DNA of 53,351 nucleotides, taken from positions 1 through 53,351 of the forward strand of contig JACPZA010000005.1 in NCBI GenBank assembly GCA_016195715.1. Direction: 5' to 3'. The first letter of the stretch is position 1. Every line of letters begins with the position of its first letter. Below the pieces are notes generated by a model. It made no database searches and was not told the DNA's origin. It was given only the letters and a program-made list of their open reading frames with translations. This DNA comes from Candidatus Daviesbacteria bacterium (GTDB lineage: Bacteria > Patescibacteriota > Microgenomatia > Daviesbacterales > UBA10151). Position numbers and translations under genes: made by a program. This document shows positions 31,056-36,987 of the stretch, piece by piece.

Positions 31056-32948
31056 ATGGCTACTCTTAAAAGACCACAACTTCCAAAATTGAGTACAAAT
31101 AGAAAACTTCCCAAACTTCCCCAAAATAGATTTGTTTCTATATTAAAAGGTTTTGCAATTTATTTAATGATTGGTTTAATTGCTTTAATCTTTTTTGTCA
31201 ATTTAACTGGCGGATTGAGCACAAGTCAAGAAGTGCCTTTGTCTCAAATTGTAACTGATGTCAAAGATGCCAAGATCTCAAAACTTAGTTTAGAAGGTGA
31301 TAAAGTTATTGCCACATATAAAGATCAAGGAAGTACACCTAAAGTAGTTGAATCCCGTAAAGAGCCAGGTGAATCAATCTATCAAGTCTTAAAAAACTCA
31401 GACATTGATCCAAAAACTGTCTCGATTGAAGTTAAAGATATCTCTTTTCAGCAAGCTTGGCTATCAATTTTAGGGACAATTTTACCAATTGTAGTCATGG
31501 TTATCTTCTTTTTCTTAATTTTCAGACAAGCCAGAGAAGGGGCACAAGGTATTTTTTCATTTGGTCAATCAAGAGCTCGGATGTTTAATAAAGATTCACC
31601 TCAAGTTAAATTTAATGATGTAGCTGGAGTTGGAGAAGCTAAAAGAGAGTTATCAGAGATTGTGGAATTTTTGAAAACTCCAGAAAAATTTAAAGCTTTG
31701 GGGGCTAGAATTCCCAAGGGAGTCTTATTAATTGGTCCAGCTGGAGTTGGAAAAACACTTCTGGCTCGAGCTGTTGCAGGAGAAGCGAATGTGCCATTTT
31801 TTTCTATTGCTGGATCTGAGTTTATGGAGATGTTAGTTGGAGTTGGAGCTGCCAGAGTTCGTGATATGTTTGCAACAGCTAAAAAAAACGCCCCAGCGAT
31901 AATTTTTATTGATGAGATTGAATCAATTGGAAGGCAGCGAGGAATGGGAATCTCTGGTGGTCATGATGAAAGAGAGCAAACGCTAAATCAAATTTTGGTT
32001 GAGATGGATGGATTTACTCCCAATGATCATGTGATTGTGATTGGTGCAACTAATAGGCCAGATTTATTGGATCAAGCTTTAATTAGACCAGGCAGGTTTG
32101 ATAGACGAGTAGTTTTGGGCATGCCAGATATTGAGGAGAGAAAAGCGATTATTAGCATTCATATGAAAGGTAAACCCTTTACTAAAGAAGTTAGTATAGA
32201 GAAATTAGCTAGACGTACTGTTGGATTTTCTGGAGCAGATTTAGCTAATGTCTTAAACGAAGCAGCAATTTTAGCTGCCCGTGAGGGTAAAACTGCTATT
32301 GATGGTAAGGATTTAGAAGAAGCCGCTACAAAAGAAAAATTAGGACCTCAAAGAAAAAGGATGCAATCTGATTATGATCGAAAGTTATCTGCTTATCATG
32401 AAGCAGGTCATGCGATTGTTGGACACTTCTTAAAACATATTGATCCAGTGCACAGGATCTCAATTGTATCTCGGGGTATGTCTGGCGGGCATACTATGTT
32501 CCCCCCCACTGAAGATCGCTCCAATGAAACTAAAACCCGCTTAGTTGAACAAATTACTGCTGCTTTAGGTGGACAAGCAGCCGAGGAGATTGTTTTTAAA
32601 GATATCTCAACTGGAGCTTCATCTGATATTGAAGTGGCGACCAACTTAGCTCGGGCTATGGTGACAGAGTATGGAATGAGTGGACTTGGACCAATTAATT
32701 TACACCCAAAATCCATGTTTGGAATTTGGGGTAGAGGGGAAGATAGTGCGGATATCTCCCCAGAGCTTAGAAATGCTGTTGATAGAGAGGTTAAAAAATT
32801 ACTGGATAATGGTTTTAGAGAGGCTTTAAGTTTAATTAGAAAACATAGATCAGGACTGGATAAAGTTGCTAAAGAGTTACTTGATAAAGAAACTTTAGAT
32901 GGAGATGAATTTGAAGCAATAGCTGGCAAAAAAGTCTCTGCTGGCTAA
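31056..32948 (+). CDS. ftsH: ATP-dependent zinc metalloprotease FtsH
   Basis: A membrane-bound AAA protease that degrades membrane and regulatory proteins. Two membrane helices (about 30-50 and 138-158) flank the extracytoplasmic domain. Walker A GPAGVGKT is at 227-234, Walker B IIFIDEIE follows, the second region of homology [18 protein letters not shown] is intact, and the zinc site HEAGH is at 448-452. Length (630) is standard. TATAAT (31043-31048) ends seven bases before the ATG, predicting a leaderless mRNA. Confidence 0.95.
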
Positions 32949-32960
32949 AATATGATTAAT

Positions 32961-32989
32961 TTGACAAGTAGAAAATATAGGAATATTAT
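32961..32989 (+). promoter_or_regulatory. Consensus promoter of a tiny leaderless ORF
   Basis: TTGACA (32961-32966), 17 bp, TATTAT (32984-32989). The predicted start point coincides with the ATG at 32996 of a 14-codon ORF. It lies 13 bp after the ftsH stop. Confidence 0.7.
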
Positions 32990-32995
32990 TGGCCT

Positions 32996-33040
32996 ATGAT
33001 TGAACAAGGACCTCAAGAAGTTAGACAACAACATGGTTAA
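32996..33040 (+). CDS. 14-residue ORF (MIEQGPQEVRQQHG)
   Basis: The ATG sits exactly where the upstream consensus promoter should start transcription; the ORF is in-frame to TAA at 33038-33040. It is too short to judge by composition. It may be a leader peptide, or chance coding within a small RNA that starts here. A second promoter begins 16 bp downstream. Confidence 0.35.
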   Translation: MIEQGPQEVRQQHG

Positions 33041-33055
33041 TATTGTGCCCCATAG

Positions 33056-33084
33056 TTGACAAAAGTTTAATTTCAGTTTACACT
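33056..33084 (+). promoter_or_regulatory. Promoter of the ABC exporter leader
   Basis: TTGACA (33056-33061), 17 bp, TACACT (33079-33084), start near 33091. The leader to the exporter ATG is about 230 nt. A seven-codon ORF (33090-33113) begins at the predicted start point and is followed by the longer leader ORF. Confidence 0.7.
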
Positions 33085-33134
33085 TTTACATGGTCAACTT
33101 TAATTCATACTAAAGATTTAAAAGTAGCCTGTTT

Positions 33135-33230
33135 ATGCTCTCTAAACACGTACCCAGTTTGAATAATATTTTTGGCGGGACTCGATTCAATCGAGTGGTT
33201 CTCGCAACTTATAAAGGAGAAAAAGTTTGA
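33135..33230 (+). CDS. 31-residue leader peptide upstream of the ABC exporter
   Basis: ATG (33135) to TGA (33228-33230). The peptide starts MLSKHVPSLNNIF and ends LATYKGEKV. It spans the first hairpin and the antiterminator 5' arm of the attenuator, so ribosome position on it could set the fold. No ribosome-binding site is obvious. I rate it as a regulatory ORF by analogy with drug-exporter leaders; it has no recognisable relatives. Confidence 0.5.
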   Translation: MLSKHVPSLNNIFGGTRFNRVVLATYKGEKV

Positions 33231-33296
33231 GTTAAGTACTTAAAAATCATCTTAAATAAATTGCGAGTAACCAGCTAAAGTCAGCTGGTTTTTTTG
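33175..33296 (+). promoter_or_regulatory. Three-state attenuator before the ABC exporter
   Basis: Hairpin 1: GCGGG (33175-33179) with CTCGC (33201-33205) and inner ACTCGA/TCGAGT. Antiterminator: GGTTCTCGCAA (33197-33207) with TTGCGAG-T-AACC (33261-33272), 11 pairs and one bulge. Terminator: AACCAGCT (33269-33276) with AGCTGGTT (33283-33290), then a T-run. Hairpin 1 blocks the antiterminator, and the antiterminator blocks the terminator. Confidence 0.75.
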
Positions 33297-33318
33297 TTTT
33301 AAAAAAAAGGAAAAAATT

Positions 33319-35088
33319 ATGTCAAGATTAAAAAGGGTGAATTTTTTAGAAAAAATTTGGGGTTTGTTAAAGCCTTTTCATCGGGATTTTTACCAAATCA
33401 TAATTATCAGTACTATCTTTCAAATCGTCCGCATGGGTGGGCCGTATATTTTTGGAAAAATTTTAGATTTATTAATTGCCAGTAAAGGCTTACTTAACTT
33501 GCAAACAGCTTTGTTTATAGTTGGAGGATTAATTGGGATTAGAATTCTATCTTTAATTATTGATTATCTAATTGATATTTTGATAGTTTTTTTGCTTTGG
33601 AAATCAGAACAATTTGTTTCGCGTGAGACCTTTAATAAATTATTGGAGTTATCACTTGATTATCATGAGAAAGAAAACACTGGCAATAAAATTAATATTG
33701 TTAACAAAGGTAGAGATAAATTAATTGATTTACTGGCAACTTATGGTTGGAGTTTTCAGCCAGTAGTTTTGCAACTGATTGTGACAGCAGGATTAATGAT
33801 GTTAGTTAACTTTTTATTCGGCGCAATCTTTTTTATCTCTTTAGTGCCATTTATTTTTAACATGTTTAAAACTTATCAATCAACCGCAACTTTGCGTGCT
33901 AAAAGACATGATTCTTATGAACTCTCCAGTGGTGAAATAGGAGATACTTTGGCTAATATCACAGTAGTTAAAGCTTTTGCTCAAGAAAAGCGGGAGTCAA
34001 AAGCTTTTGGTTCAATCTGGGATGAGATTAAAAGTCTTTCAGTTAAAGAGTTTAGATCACATATGGTTAATGGTTTTTTAAGATCTTTGAGTATTGAAAT
34101 AATGTATGCAGTTTTAATTATTGTGGGAATTGTTGAGATTAAAAATAGTTTATTAACTGTGGGAAGTTTGGTGTTTTTAATTTCTTTAACGGAAAGAGCT
34201 TACTCAAATATTTTTCAGTTAGGTTGGATTTATGAAAGAGCGATTGATGCATCAGAGCCTGTGGATCGAGTGATCTCACTTTTGCAAAAGCAGCCAAGCA
34301 TTCAGAATTCGCTAAATCCTATCAGAGCAGAAAACTTAAATGGTCAAATTAGCTTTAAACATGTAACTTTTGCTTATACAAAAAGACGGGTTTTAAAAAA
34401 TGTCAGTTTTACTATTCCAGCTGGATCATTTAGCGCTTTTGTAGGTAAATCAGGTTCTGGTAAATCAACCATTGCTAAGTTAATTAGCCGCTACTATGAT
34501 CCAACCAAAGGTGCAATTATCATCGATGGAAAATATGATCTAAGGCGGTTGGATTTAGACACTTTTAGAAAACAAACTGCGATTGTTTTTCAAGATTCGC
34601 CTGTTCCAAATCGAAAAATTTGGGAGGTAATCTCTTATGCAAGTGGTAAAAAAACTTTTAGTGAGATTAAAGATCAAGTTGTTAAAGCTGCCAAGTTAGC
34701 TCATGCTGATGAGTTTATCAAAGAGCTAAAAGATGGCTATTTAACTCAAATTGGCGAGCGGGGTGTGAAATTATCTGGTGGACAAAGACAGCGTTTAGCA
34801 ATAGCTAGAGCGCTGTTTGCTTGCCCAAAAATATTAGTTATGGATGAGCCAACTTCACACCTAGATACTGTATCAGAGGCTTTAATTCAACAAGCTTTAG
34901 TTAATATTTCCAAAGAGCGCTCGATGACTAAAATAATTATTGCCCATAGATTATCGACAGTTCAGCGAGCTGACCAGATTTTAGTGATGGAAAAAGGTAA
35001 ATTAGTTGAACATGGGACGCATAAATCACTTTTGCTAAAAAATGGAATTTATAGTCAAATTGTCAAACAATCTGAGTTAAAAAATTAA
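33319..35088 (+). CDS. ABC exporter half-transporter (membrane plus ATPase domains)
   Basis: Residues 1-320 form a six-helix exporter domain (first helices near 25-45 and 62-95). The ATPase follows: Walker A GKSGSGKS (376-383), signature LSGGQRQR (485-492), Walker B ILVMDEP (505-511) and the H-loop IIAHRLS. It should act as a homodimer like MsbA or multidrug exporters, or with an unseen partner; the cargo is unknown. AAAAGGA lies before the ATG. The leader holds a three-state attenuator with a leader ORF, reminiscent of the ribosome-sensing control of bmrCD in Bacillus, so a role in drug or peptide export is plausible. Confidence 0.85.
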   Translation: MSRLKRVNFLEKIWGLLKPFHRDFYQIIIISTIFQIVRMGGPYIFGKILDLLIASKGLLNLQTALFIVGGLIGIRILSLIIDYLIDILIVFLLWKSEQFVSRETFNKLLELSLDYHEKENTGNKINIVNKGRDKLIDLLATYGWSFQPVVLQLIVTAGLMMLVNFLFGAIFFISLVPFIFNMFKTYQSTATLRAKRHDSYELSSGEIGDTLANITVVKAFAQEKRESKAFGSIWDEIKSLSVKEFRSHMVNGFLRSLSIEIMYAVLIIVGIVEIKNSLLTVGSLVFLISLTERAYSNIFQLGWIYERAIDASEPVDRVISLLQKQPSIQNSLNPIRAENLNGQISFKHVTFAYTKRRVLKNVSFTIPAGSFSAFVGKSGSGKSTIAKLISRYYDPTKGAIIIDGKYDLRRLDLDTFRKQTAIVFQDSPVPNRKIWEVISYASGKKTFSEIKDQVVKAAKLAHADEFIKELKDGYLTQIGERGVKLSGGQRQRLAIARALFACPKILVMDEPTSHLDTVSEALIQQALVNISKERSMTKIIIAHRLSTVQRADQILVMEKGKLVEHGTHKSLLLKNGIYSQIVKQSELKN

Positions 35089-35127: not shown

Positions 35128-35838
35128 ATGAAACTGGCTTTAAGTATAGTCATCCCCACTCTTAATGAAGAGAAGTATTTACCTAGTCTACTAAATTCTA
35201 TTCAAAATCAAACTAAACTTCCCAAAGAGATAATTATTGCTGATGCAAAATCTTCTGATCAAACCAGGAAAATTGCCAGAGATTTTAAGTGTAAATTAGT
35301 TGATGGAGGATTACCAAGTGTAGCCCGCAATAATGGAGCTAAAGCTGCAAAGGAAAAATTGATCCTTTTTTTGGATGCTGACATTTTACTATCTCGAAGT
35401 TTTTTAGAAGTAGCTTTGCTTGAGATGAGGCAAAAAAAACTTGATGTAGCATCTTGCTTTGGTATTCCACTATCTTCAGCCAGAATTGATAAGATTATCT
35501 TTCGCTCAAGTGCTAGAGTAATTAAACTAGCTGAAAAAATTTCTCCTCGGGCCAGTACGCCCTGTTTGTTTATTAAAAAAAGTTTGCATCAACAAATTGA
35601 TGGTTTTGATGAATCAGTTGTCCATGCAGAAGATCATGACTACGTTAAAAGAGCAGCCAAAATTGGTAAATTTGCTTATTTAAAGGGAGTTAAAGTTTTA
35701 ATATCTACCAGAAGATTCAGCAAAGAGGGTCGGTTAAAACTGGCTTTAAAGTACGCTATTTCAGAAATGCACCAAACTTTTGTTGGACCAATTAGAAAGG
35801 ATATTTTTAAATATGAGTTTGGAAACTATGAAGAATAA
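35128..35838 (+). CDS. Glycosyltransferase family 2
   Basis: The GT-A start is LSIVIPTLNEEKYLPSLLNSI, with EIIIADAKSSDQT, VARNNGAKAA and the metal-binding LILFLDADILL (about 86-96). HAEDHDYVKRAAKIG gives the acceptor-side ED motif. No membrane helix is seen, so it works at the inner face of the membrane or in the cytosol. It heads a three-gene run with an integral membrane protein and a second GT2, linked by short overlaps, which suggests a shared glycan or glycolipid product. Confidence 0.85.
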   Translation: MKLALSIVIPTLNEEKYLPSLLNSIQNQTKLPKEIIIADAKSSDQTRKIARDFKCKLVDGGLPSVARNNGAKAAKEKLILFLDADILLSRSFLEVALLEMRQKKLDVASCFGIPLSSARIDKIIFRSSARVIKLAEKISPRASTPCLFIKKSLHQQIDGFDESVVHAEDHDYVKRAAKIGKFAYLKGVKVLISTRRFSKEGRLKLALKYAISEMHQTFVGPIRKDIFKYEFGNYEE

Positions 35839-36268
35839 GCTAAATTTAGAAAAAATTCTAAAAAGTTATTTACTTTTTGGAGGGGTTTATATGATTTTTG
35901 AAAGTTTAATTCATCTAAGTCAGATTAGATTAGTAGATGTAAAATCCAATTGGCCAGATTCTGCTTTAATTTATGCTACGCTTTTTAATTATCTTTATGG
36001 ATCTTTTGCTCTTTTTTTAGCAGCTTTAGTTTTTTATCTGCAAAAAAACTTAGTTAAAAATCGCAATTTAATAAATTTACTGGCTATTTTTGCTTTTTTG
36101 CATGCTAGTTTAGTAGTTTTTTTAAGTTTAAATTTTAATTTTGATTTAAGCTTTGCTCAATTTAACTCTTTGCGATTTTGGATACCAATTTATAATTTTT
36201 ATTTACTATTTGAGGCAATTTTGCTTTATTTTTTTTGTTTGTTAGTTTATTTGTGGAATAAAAAATGA
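35813..36268 (+). CDS. Four-helix membrane protein between two glycosyltransferases
   Basis: The protein has four hydrophobic segments (about residues 18-36, 52-75, 85-110, 125-150) rich in Leu and Phe and no enzyme motif. I chose ATG 35813, preceded by GAAAGGA about 11 bases upstream; ATG 35828 is also possible. Either start overlaps the preceding GT2 gene, and the stop overlaps the next GT2 by four bases. It may anchor or assist those enzymes. Confidence 0.6.
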   Translation: MSLETMKNKLNLEKILKSYLLFGGVYMIFESLIHLSQIRLVDVKSNWPDSALIYATLFNYLYGSFALFLAALVFYLQKNLVKNRNLINLLAIFAFLHASLVVFLSLNFNFDLSFAQFNSLRFWIPIYNFYLLFEAILLYFFCLLVYLWNKK

Positions 36269-36987
36269 AAAAAGAATTTTTAGTTTCTGTGATAATTCCG
36301 GCTTTTAATGAACAAAAAAATATCGCTATTTGTTTACAGTCTTTAGTTGATCAACAAACAAATTACCCTTTTGAAGTGATTGTAGTTGATAATAACTCAA
36401 CAGATAAAACTAGTGAAATGGCTTACAAGTTTAAAAAAAAGCTGGATTTAAAAGTTGTTAATGAAGAAAAGCAGGGTAGAGGAATAGCTAGATGGAGAGG
36501 ATTTAATGAAGCAAAGGGAGAAATTTTACTTTCATTGGATGCAGATACTAAAGTTCCAGCTAATTGGCTAGACAGTTTAGTCAAAGCGCTGGATCAAAAA
36601 AAAGTTGCTGCTGTCACAACTGCTGTTAAAATTAATGATTGTTCAGTATTAACTAATACTTTGTTTAATTTAACTCAACCTTTAGTTTTGCAACTTTATA
36701 GAGTATTAACTGGACACCTTTGGTTAAATGGTTTTAGTTTTGGAATTAAAAAAGAAATTTATCAAAAATCCGGTGGGTTTAATCCTAACTTACAAGCTCA
36801 AGAAGATTTAGATTTGGGATTTAGAGTAGCTAAACTTGGGAAAATTAAATCAATTGATTTAGTGGTAATATTTTCTGGTAGAAGATTTAAACATGGACTA
36901 CTAACTGGTGCGCTACCTTACTTTAAAACCTTTTTTCAGCTTTACTATATGAAAAAAGAAGACATCTACTTAAGTAATCCTAGGTGA
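36265..36987 (+). CDS. Glycosyltransferase family 2
   Basis: Starts LVSVIIPAFNEQKNIAICLQSL and continues with EVIVVDNNSTDKT, GRGIARWRGFNEAKGEILLSLDADTKVP (DxD about 91-93) and AQEDLDLGFRVAKLGK. The C-terminal RRFKHGLLTGALPYFKTFFQLYYM may lie on the membrane. It differs clearly from the first GT2, so the two likely add different sugars. Overlaps the upstream membrane protein gene by four bases (ATGA). Confidence 0.85.
   Translation: MKKEFLVSVIIPAFNEQKNIAICLQSLVDQQTNYPFEVIVVDNNSTDKTSEMAYKFKKKLDLKVVNEEKQGRGIARWRGFNEAKGEILLSLDADTKVPANWLDSLVKALDQKKVAAVTTAVKINDCSVLTNTLFNLTQPLVLQLYRVLTGHLWLNGFSFGIKKEIYQKSGGFNPNLQAQEDLDLGFRVAKLGKIKSIDLVVIFSGRRFKHGLLTGALPYFKTFFQLYYMKKEDIYLSNPR

Follow-up and report, generated by a model that had tools for sequence, protein, structure and literature searches.

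In a Candidatus Daviesbacteria genome, the gene of an ABC exporter is preceded by a conserved leader that we read from its sequence, with moderate confidence, as a leader-peptide transcription attenuator, ribosome-mediated and similar to that of bmrCD; the pump is probably turned on by ribosome stalling. Comparison with related genomes brings out the parts of this leader, their conservation and covariation, an open reading frame and a positional logic, and defines the leader as a narrow RNA family. Bacteria of the Daviesbacteria type are tiny and mostly uncultured and, to our knowledge, little has been learned about gene regulation in bacteria of the candidate phyla radiation (CPR). Ribosome stalling serves as the switch for some antibiotic-induced pumps.

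The window, that is, the whole stretch of 53,351 nt that was analyzed, is a contig of a 1.15-Mb genome. The leader lies between ftsH (31056-32948) and the exporter gene (33319-35088), whose product is a single ABCB-type half-transporter; family searches returned general ABCB/MsbA-like matches, none above the NCBIfam cut-offs. Among 45 genomes of the Daviesbacteria-type family we found nine orthologues of the exporter including our own, the other eight being 62-74% identical, and its relatives include several Candidatus Daviesbacteria MAGs. Since the gene neighborhood is kept across most orthologues, with ftsH near the exporter gene in most genomes and polA nearby in several, inheritance has been mainly vertical. 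In the tree our exporter groups with those of G040, G019, G038 and G009 (100/100); the remaining four branch at the base without resolution, so that the tree does not settle gain versus loss of the leader. The region after the exporter gene (35128-36987) encodes a pair of GT2 glycosyltransferases and a protein of 162 aa that has no Pfam match, and this protein is kept together with a glycosyltransferase near the exporter in G009 and G019, partly in another orientation.

Seven of the nine orthologues are preceded by a homologous leader (Table 1), in which a promoter and two 5' hairpins, the capped stem P0 and P1 with the start codon, are combined with a short ORF, an inner hairpin, an antiterminator of long range and a terminator. 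Besides our own, clear homologues stand upstream of the exporter in G040, G038, G009, G019 and G010, and a divergent one in G027 has a GTG start, a terminator and an antiterminator, P0 being unrecognizable. The preliminary description had held that relatives with the exporter and none of the stems would refute the switch. Two such relatives exist: the leader is absent in G013, and in G012 the promoter element CCCATAGTTGACA is kept and leads directly into the exporter gene. The leader is therefore common and not obligatory. A covariance model of the 5' domain, run against the 45 family genomes and 374 genomes of the class, retrieved six true copies, which scored 65-81 bits and all precede this exporter. 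G026 had the next match, at 23.8 bits; this one and four weaker ones were rejected on reading, as they showed no layout of promoter, ORF and terminator. In this set of 45 and 374 genomes no copy was found outside the family or before another gene. A search for further copies in our own genome gave only short chance matches, and the conserved P1/start motif was not found in viral contigs. Rfam returned no leader match in the window at gathering scores, and chance-level matches only when the leader and its relatives were searched at loose thresholds.

Table 1. Features of the leader and the exporter gene, in window positions. Permutations are exchanges of helix arms between species, counted when as good as the real pairing.
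Feature	Position	Strand	Support
Promoter: CCCATAG extension, TTGACA (33056-33061), 17-nt spacer, TACACT (33079-33084)	33049-33084	+	-35 and -10 kept upstream of relatives' leaders
P0: outer GG/CC (33092-33093 with 33128-33129), main stem (~33098-33106 with 33115-33124), loop	33092-33129	+	Covariation, RNAalifold
P1: hairpin TGTTTA/TAAACA enclosing the start codon of the leader ORF	33130-33148	+	6/720 permutations
Leader ORF, 31 codons, MLSKHVPSLNNIFGGTRFNRVVLATYKGEKV	33135-33230	+	All seven frames read through the antiterminator 5' arm; 7/1000 in codon-pattern test
Hairpin 1, full: GCGGGA-CTCGAT...ATCGAG-TGGT-TCTCGC; outer stem GCGGGA/TCTCGC would compete with antiterminator	33175-33205	+	Present here
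Hairpin 1, inner stem CTCGAT/ATCGAG, which a ribosome on codon ~10 would meet next	33181-33195	+	7/5040 permutations
Antiterminator 5' arm, GGTTCTCGCAA, within leader ORF	33197-33207	+	Best partner of 33258-33272 in whole leader
Antiterminator 3' arm, TTGCGAG-T-AACC, T33268 bulged	33261-33272	+	2/5040 permutations
Intrinsic terminator: 8-pair hairpin (33269-33290) and T-run (33289-33295)	33269-33295	+	4/5040 permutations
ABCB-type exporter, fused membrane and ATPase domains, 589 aa	33319-35088	+	Pfam PF00664, PF00005

The TTGACA-N17-TACACT promoter (33056-33084) is present where the preliminary description had placed it. Taken alone it is no better than chance in a local scan (20 found versus 17 expected), and it is retained in relatives despite this. 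The sequence CCCATAGTTGACA (33049-33061) occurs in exactly one copy each in G000, G010, G027 and G012, always at the promoter of this exporter, and is a possible candidate for the site of an upstream factor. A second promoter with a better match (TTGACA-N17-TATTAT, 11/12) lies just 3' of ftsH, within 32961-33040, and is followed by a 14-codon ORF, MIEQGPQEVRQQHG, that begins at the predicted transcript start, 32996. This arrangement is not general, because almost nothing lies between ftsH and the leader promoter in G019.

The leader ORF, likewise found at the position first assigned to it, is open over the 5' arm of the antiterminator in all seven leaders; it overlaps this arm and ends between the two arms. 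Shuffling gives probabilities of 0.15-0.31 per species for such an open frame, with a product of about 4e-5 if the species are independent, and the other two frames contain stops in all but one case. The frame relative to the arm varies between species and stays open throughout. At the peptide level the first ~13 codons are conserved (M-A-I-[QH]-V-P-x-x-N-x-L-x-G), unlike the C-terminal half. In our genome the peptide starts M-L-S-K-H-V-P-S-L-N-N-I-F-G-G, and in the relatives M-A-I-Q-V-P-S-I-N-I-L-A-G (G040), M-A-I-Q-V-P-N-I-N-N-L-A-G (G038), M-A-I-Y-V-P-I-M-N-I-L-A-G (G019), M-A-I-H-I-P-D-A-N-T-L-V-G (G009) and M-A-Q-H-V-P-S-L-N-N (G010). Amino-acid similarity beats column shuffles in 993 of 1000 cases, and indels comprise whole codons within the conserved stretch, which is not so just before the ATG. 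A conserved N-terminus followed by a variable but open C-terminal half is the pattern expected if the first half senses and the second is only read through, and the ORF is presumably translated. No Shine-Dalgarno sequence precedes it, though the anti-SD end of the 16S rRNA is canonical. Within the antiterminator loop (33213-33235), a strong SD-like AAAGGAG stands 7 nt upstream of TTG-AGT-TAA, a frame of two codons and a stop that overlaps the stop of the leader ORF and was not seen in relatives.

Hairpin 1, an 11-pair antiterminator and an 8-pair terminator had been proposed as three mutually exclusive states in a chain, and each of the three structures is found at the coordinates proposed for it. 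The RNA from 33091 to 33300 (210 nt) folds more stably than its shuffles (z = -2.85). Covariation was assessed by swapping the 5' and 3' arms of each helix between species and asking whether an arm pairs better with its native partner than with those of other species. Across the relatives, covariation is seen for the inner stem of hairpin 1 and for both antiterminator and terminator; for the outer stem of hairpin 1, 1098 of 5040 permutations were as good, and the proposed chain reduces to the antiterminator/terminator pair because this stem does not covary. As the helix windows had been picked by eye, we added a less guided check in which the 15-nt segment with the shared AACC at its 3' end was compared with the whole upstream leader. 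The best partner of our own 3' arm was its 5' arm, equalled or beaten by 3 of 500 shuffles. The homologous 5' arm was the best partner in six of seven species, significantly in five (shuffles as good, of 500: G040, 4; G038, 0; G019, 87; G009, 1; G027, 0). The exception is G010, where the usual antiterminator register is absent.

The terminator recurs, with covariation, in all six relatives that have the leader. Any exclusion of the terminator by the antiterminator would depend on AACC (33269-33272), used by both; the two share only these ~4 bases, are nearly balanced in energy, and the antiterminator core coexists with the terminator in the minimum-energy free fold. The antiterminator of G019 does not hold AACC, and this species is a poor fit. 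A trp-like 1:2 helix (33150-33155 with 33175-33180), predicted in our sequence, was discarded as it does not covary (2651/5040). In three relatives (L018, L019 and L021) the antiterminator loop upstream of the exporter is made of near-repeats of AAAATTCAAAATTTAAAATTC and is almost free of G.

Over the leader start codon lies a conserved 5' domain (33092-33148) that was absent from the preliminary description. The loop of P0 carries an almost invariant AYACYAAA(A), and a single permutation of its arms between species (1/720) was as good as the real pairing. Jointly, P0 and P1 reach a covariation score of 0.451 versus 0.178 for shuffles (0/500) in an alignment fitted to the model, while RNAalifold recovered P0, the inner hairpin and the terminator unaided. 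A pseudoknot between TTGG and the P0 loop would be complementary, but its changes are one-sided only, and we do not claim it. The domain is a new RNA element, and one that needs explanation.

To follow the positional logic, each of the seven leaders was folded with a ribosome footprint at every codon. With the ribosome anywhere from codon 1 up to ~14 (12 in G027) the antiterminator core persists; with the ribosome on codons ~18 to ~24 it is gone, the boundary falling just after the conserved peptide. This pattern holds in the six species with a strong predicted core, and the weak core of G010 behaves alike. Blocking the 5' arm removes the competition that the antiterminator offers to the terminator. 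Folding with a placed ribosome thus yields the outcome that the preliminary description had proposed for stalling: the antiterminator survives on the conserved codons and is lost further on. When the whole terminator is available, equilibrium folding often favors it even if a ribosome occupies codon 9, and antitermination would therefore have to be kinetic. In most species the arm is uncovered again once the ribosome has come to rest at the stop codon.

In the mechanism that we propose, transcription would start near 33092 and a ribosome would initiate the short ORF inside P1. Moving freely, it would cover the 5' arm (33197-33207) while RNA polymerase makes 33261-33290, so that the terminator would form and the transcript would stop at ~33290-33296. 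A ribosome stalled on the conserved first ~13 codons would leave the 5' arm free to pair with 33261-33272; the antiterminator would then grip the foot of the terminator (AACC), and the polymerase would read into the exporter gene. Stalling and real antitermination are what we infer here, and the stalling signal would presumably be a ribosome-targeting compound or a general translation stress that the pump relieves.

The 5' domain invites a different explanation, in which P0/P1 is a true ligand-sensing or protein-sensing domain (a riboswitch or a protein-binding leader) that gates leader translation or read-through directly, with the ORF being secondary. We consider this unlikely: we found no pairing by which P0 or P1 would be linked to either antiterminator or terminator, the domain stands before no other gene in the 45 family and 374 class genomes and has no Rfam match, conservation at the N-terminus of the ORF is codon-like, and the G027 leader keeps ORF, antiterminator and terminator with no recognizable P0. 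What the explanation does account for is the strong covariation of P0, its almost invariant loop AYACYAAAA and its GG/CC base, and because P1 encloses the start codon of an ORF that has no Shine-Dalgarno sequence, the 5' domain could indeed control initiation. Both ideas could be joined in a two-input switch, a tentative and rather improbable reading, in which P0 and P1, standing in for a Shine-Dalgarno sequence by recruiting the ribosome or sensing a ligand, set how often the ORF is initiated, and termination then depends on the nascent M-A-I-[QH]-V-P-x-x-N peptide. If so, it would represent an RNA family and a stalling peptide found so far in only one CPR family.

That there is no regulated switch at all seems quite improbable. 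The leader terminator would then act constitutively, lowering exporter expression or releasing a small RNA, and the long-range helix would merely shield the RNA, an arrangement that agrees with the coexistence of antiterminator core and terminator in the free fold, with their overlap of only ~4 nt and with G012 and G013, which manage without the leader. It sits poorly with a conserved open frame exactly across the helix arm (7/7) and with a conserved peptide segment that ends, again in 7/7, where a ribosome would begin to block this arm. An amino-acid attenuator of the trp/his kind, in which stalling results from missing charged tRNA, shares the layout of ORF, antiterminator and terminator; it is very improbable here, as the seven peptides contain no run, shared repeat or conserved excess of one codon and the gene encodes an exporter, not a biosynthetic or uptake function. 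A T-box reading of GAGTGGTTCTCGC was rejected, UGG not being kept in relatives and no Rfam match being found.

The relatives are numerous enough for covariation and a conserved peptide, which turns the proposed attenuation by a leader peptide into concrete, testable bases and codons. If stalling is the input, cells with reduced genomes would detect inhibitors of translation, which may come from hosts or competitors, and respond by means of an export pump. In the literature that we searched, no leader-peptide attenuator has been described in CPR bacteria.

The closest parallel is Bacillus subtilis bmrCD, for which attenuation by ORF, antiterminator and terminator was demonstrated experimentally: efficient translation leads to the terminator, and slowed translation to the antiterminator, the weaker structure (PMC4191407). 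As in bmrB-bmrCD, a short ORF stands before an ABC multidrug-type exporter, a terminator is combined with an antiterminator that is the less stable of the two (bmrB also has a predicted anti-antiterminator), and slowed translation of the ORF is the proposed signal. All structures of bmrB lie inside its ORF, whereas ours ends between the antiterminator arms; the pump encoded here is a single ABCB-type half-transporter; our start codon lies within a conserved, structured 5' domain and has no Shine-Dalgarno sequence before it; and an anti-antiterminator, whose role in bmrB is itself uncertain, is not conserved (PMC4191407).

Similarly, in B. subtilis tlrB (yxjB) a ribosome stall on a leader peptide, there drug-dependent, decides whether a terminator forms (PMC6851288). 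The tlrB peptide differs in having 9 codons with an RYR motif at the end, and in that system it is the stalled ribosome that obstructs the terminator, with RNA polymerase pausing as a requirement (PMC6851288); an R/K-x-R/K motif is not conserved in the leader peptides studied here. A further parallel is the Escherichia coli uORF toiL before topAI-yjhQ, which acts on a different gene and on translation and Rho-dependent termination, unlike the intrinsic terminator found here. Ribosome-targeting drugs of several classes are proposed to be sensed there through stalls at different codons (PMC12121999); stalling would likewise be the signal in the exporter leader.
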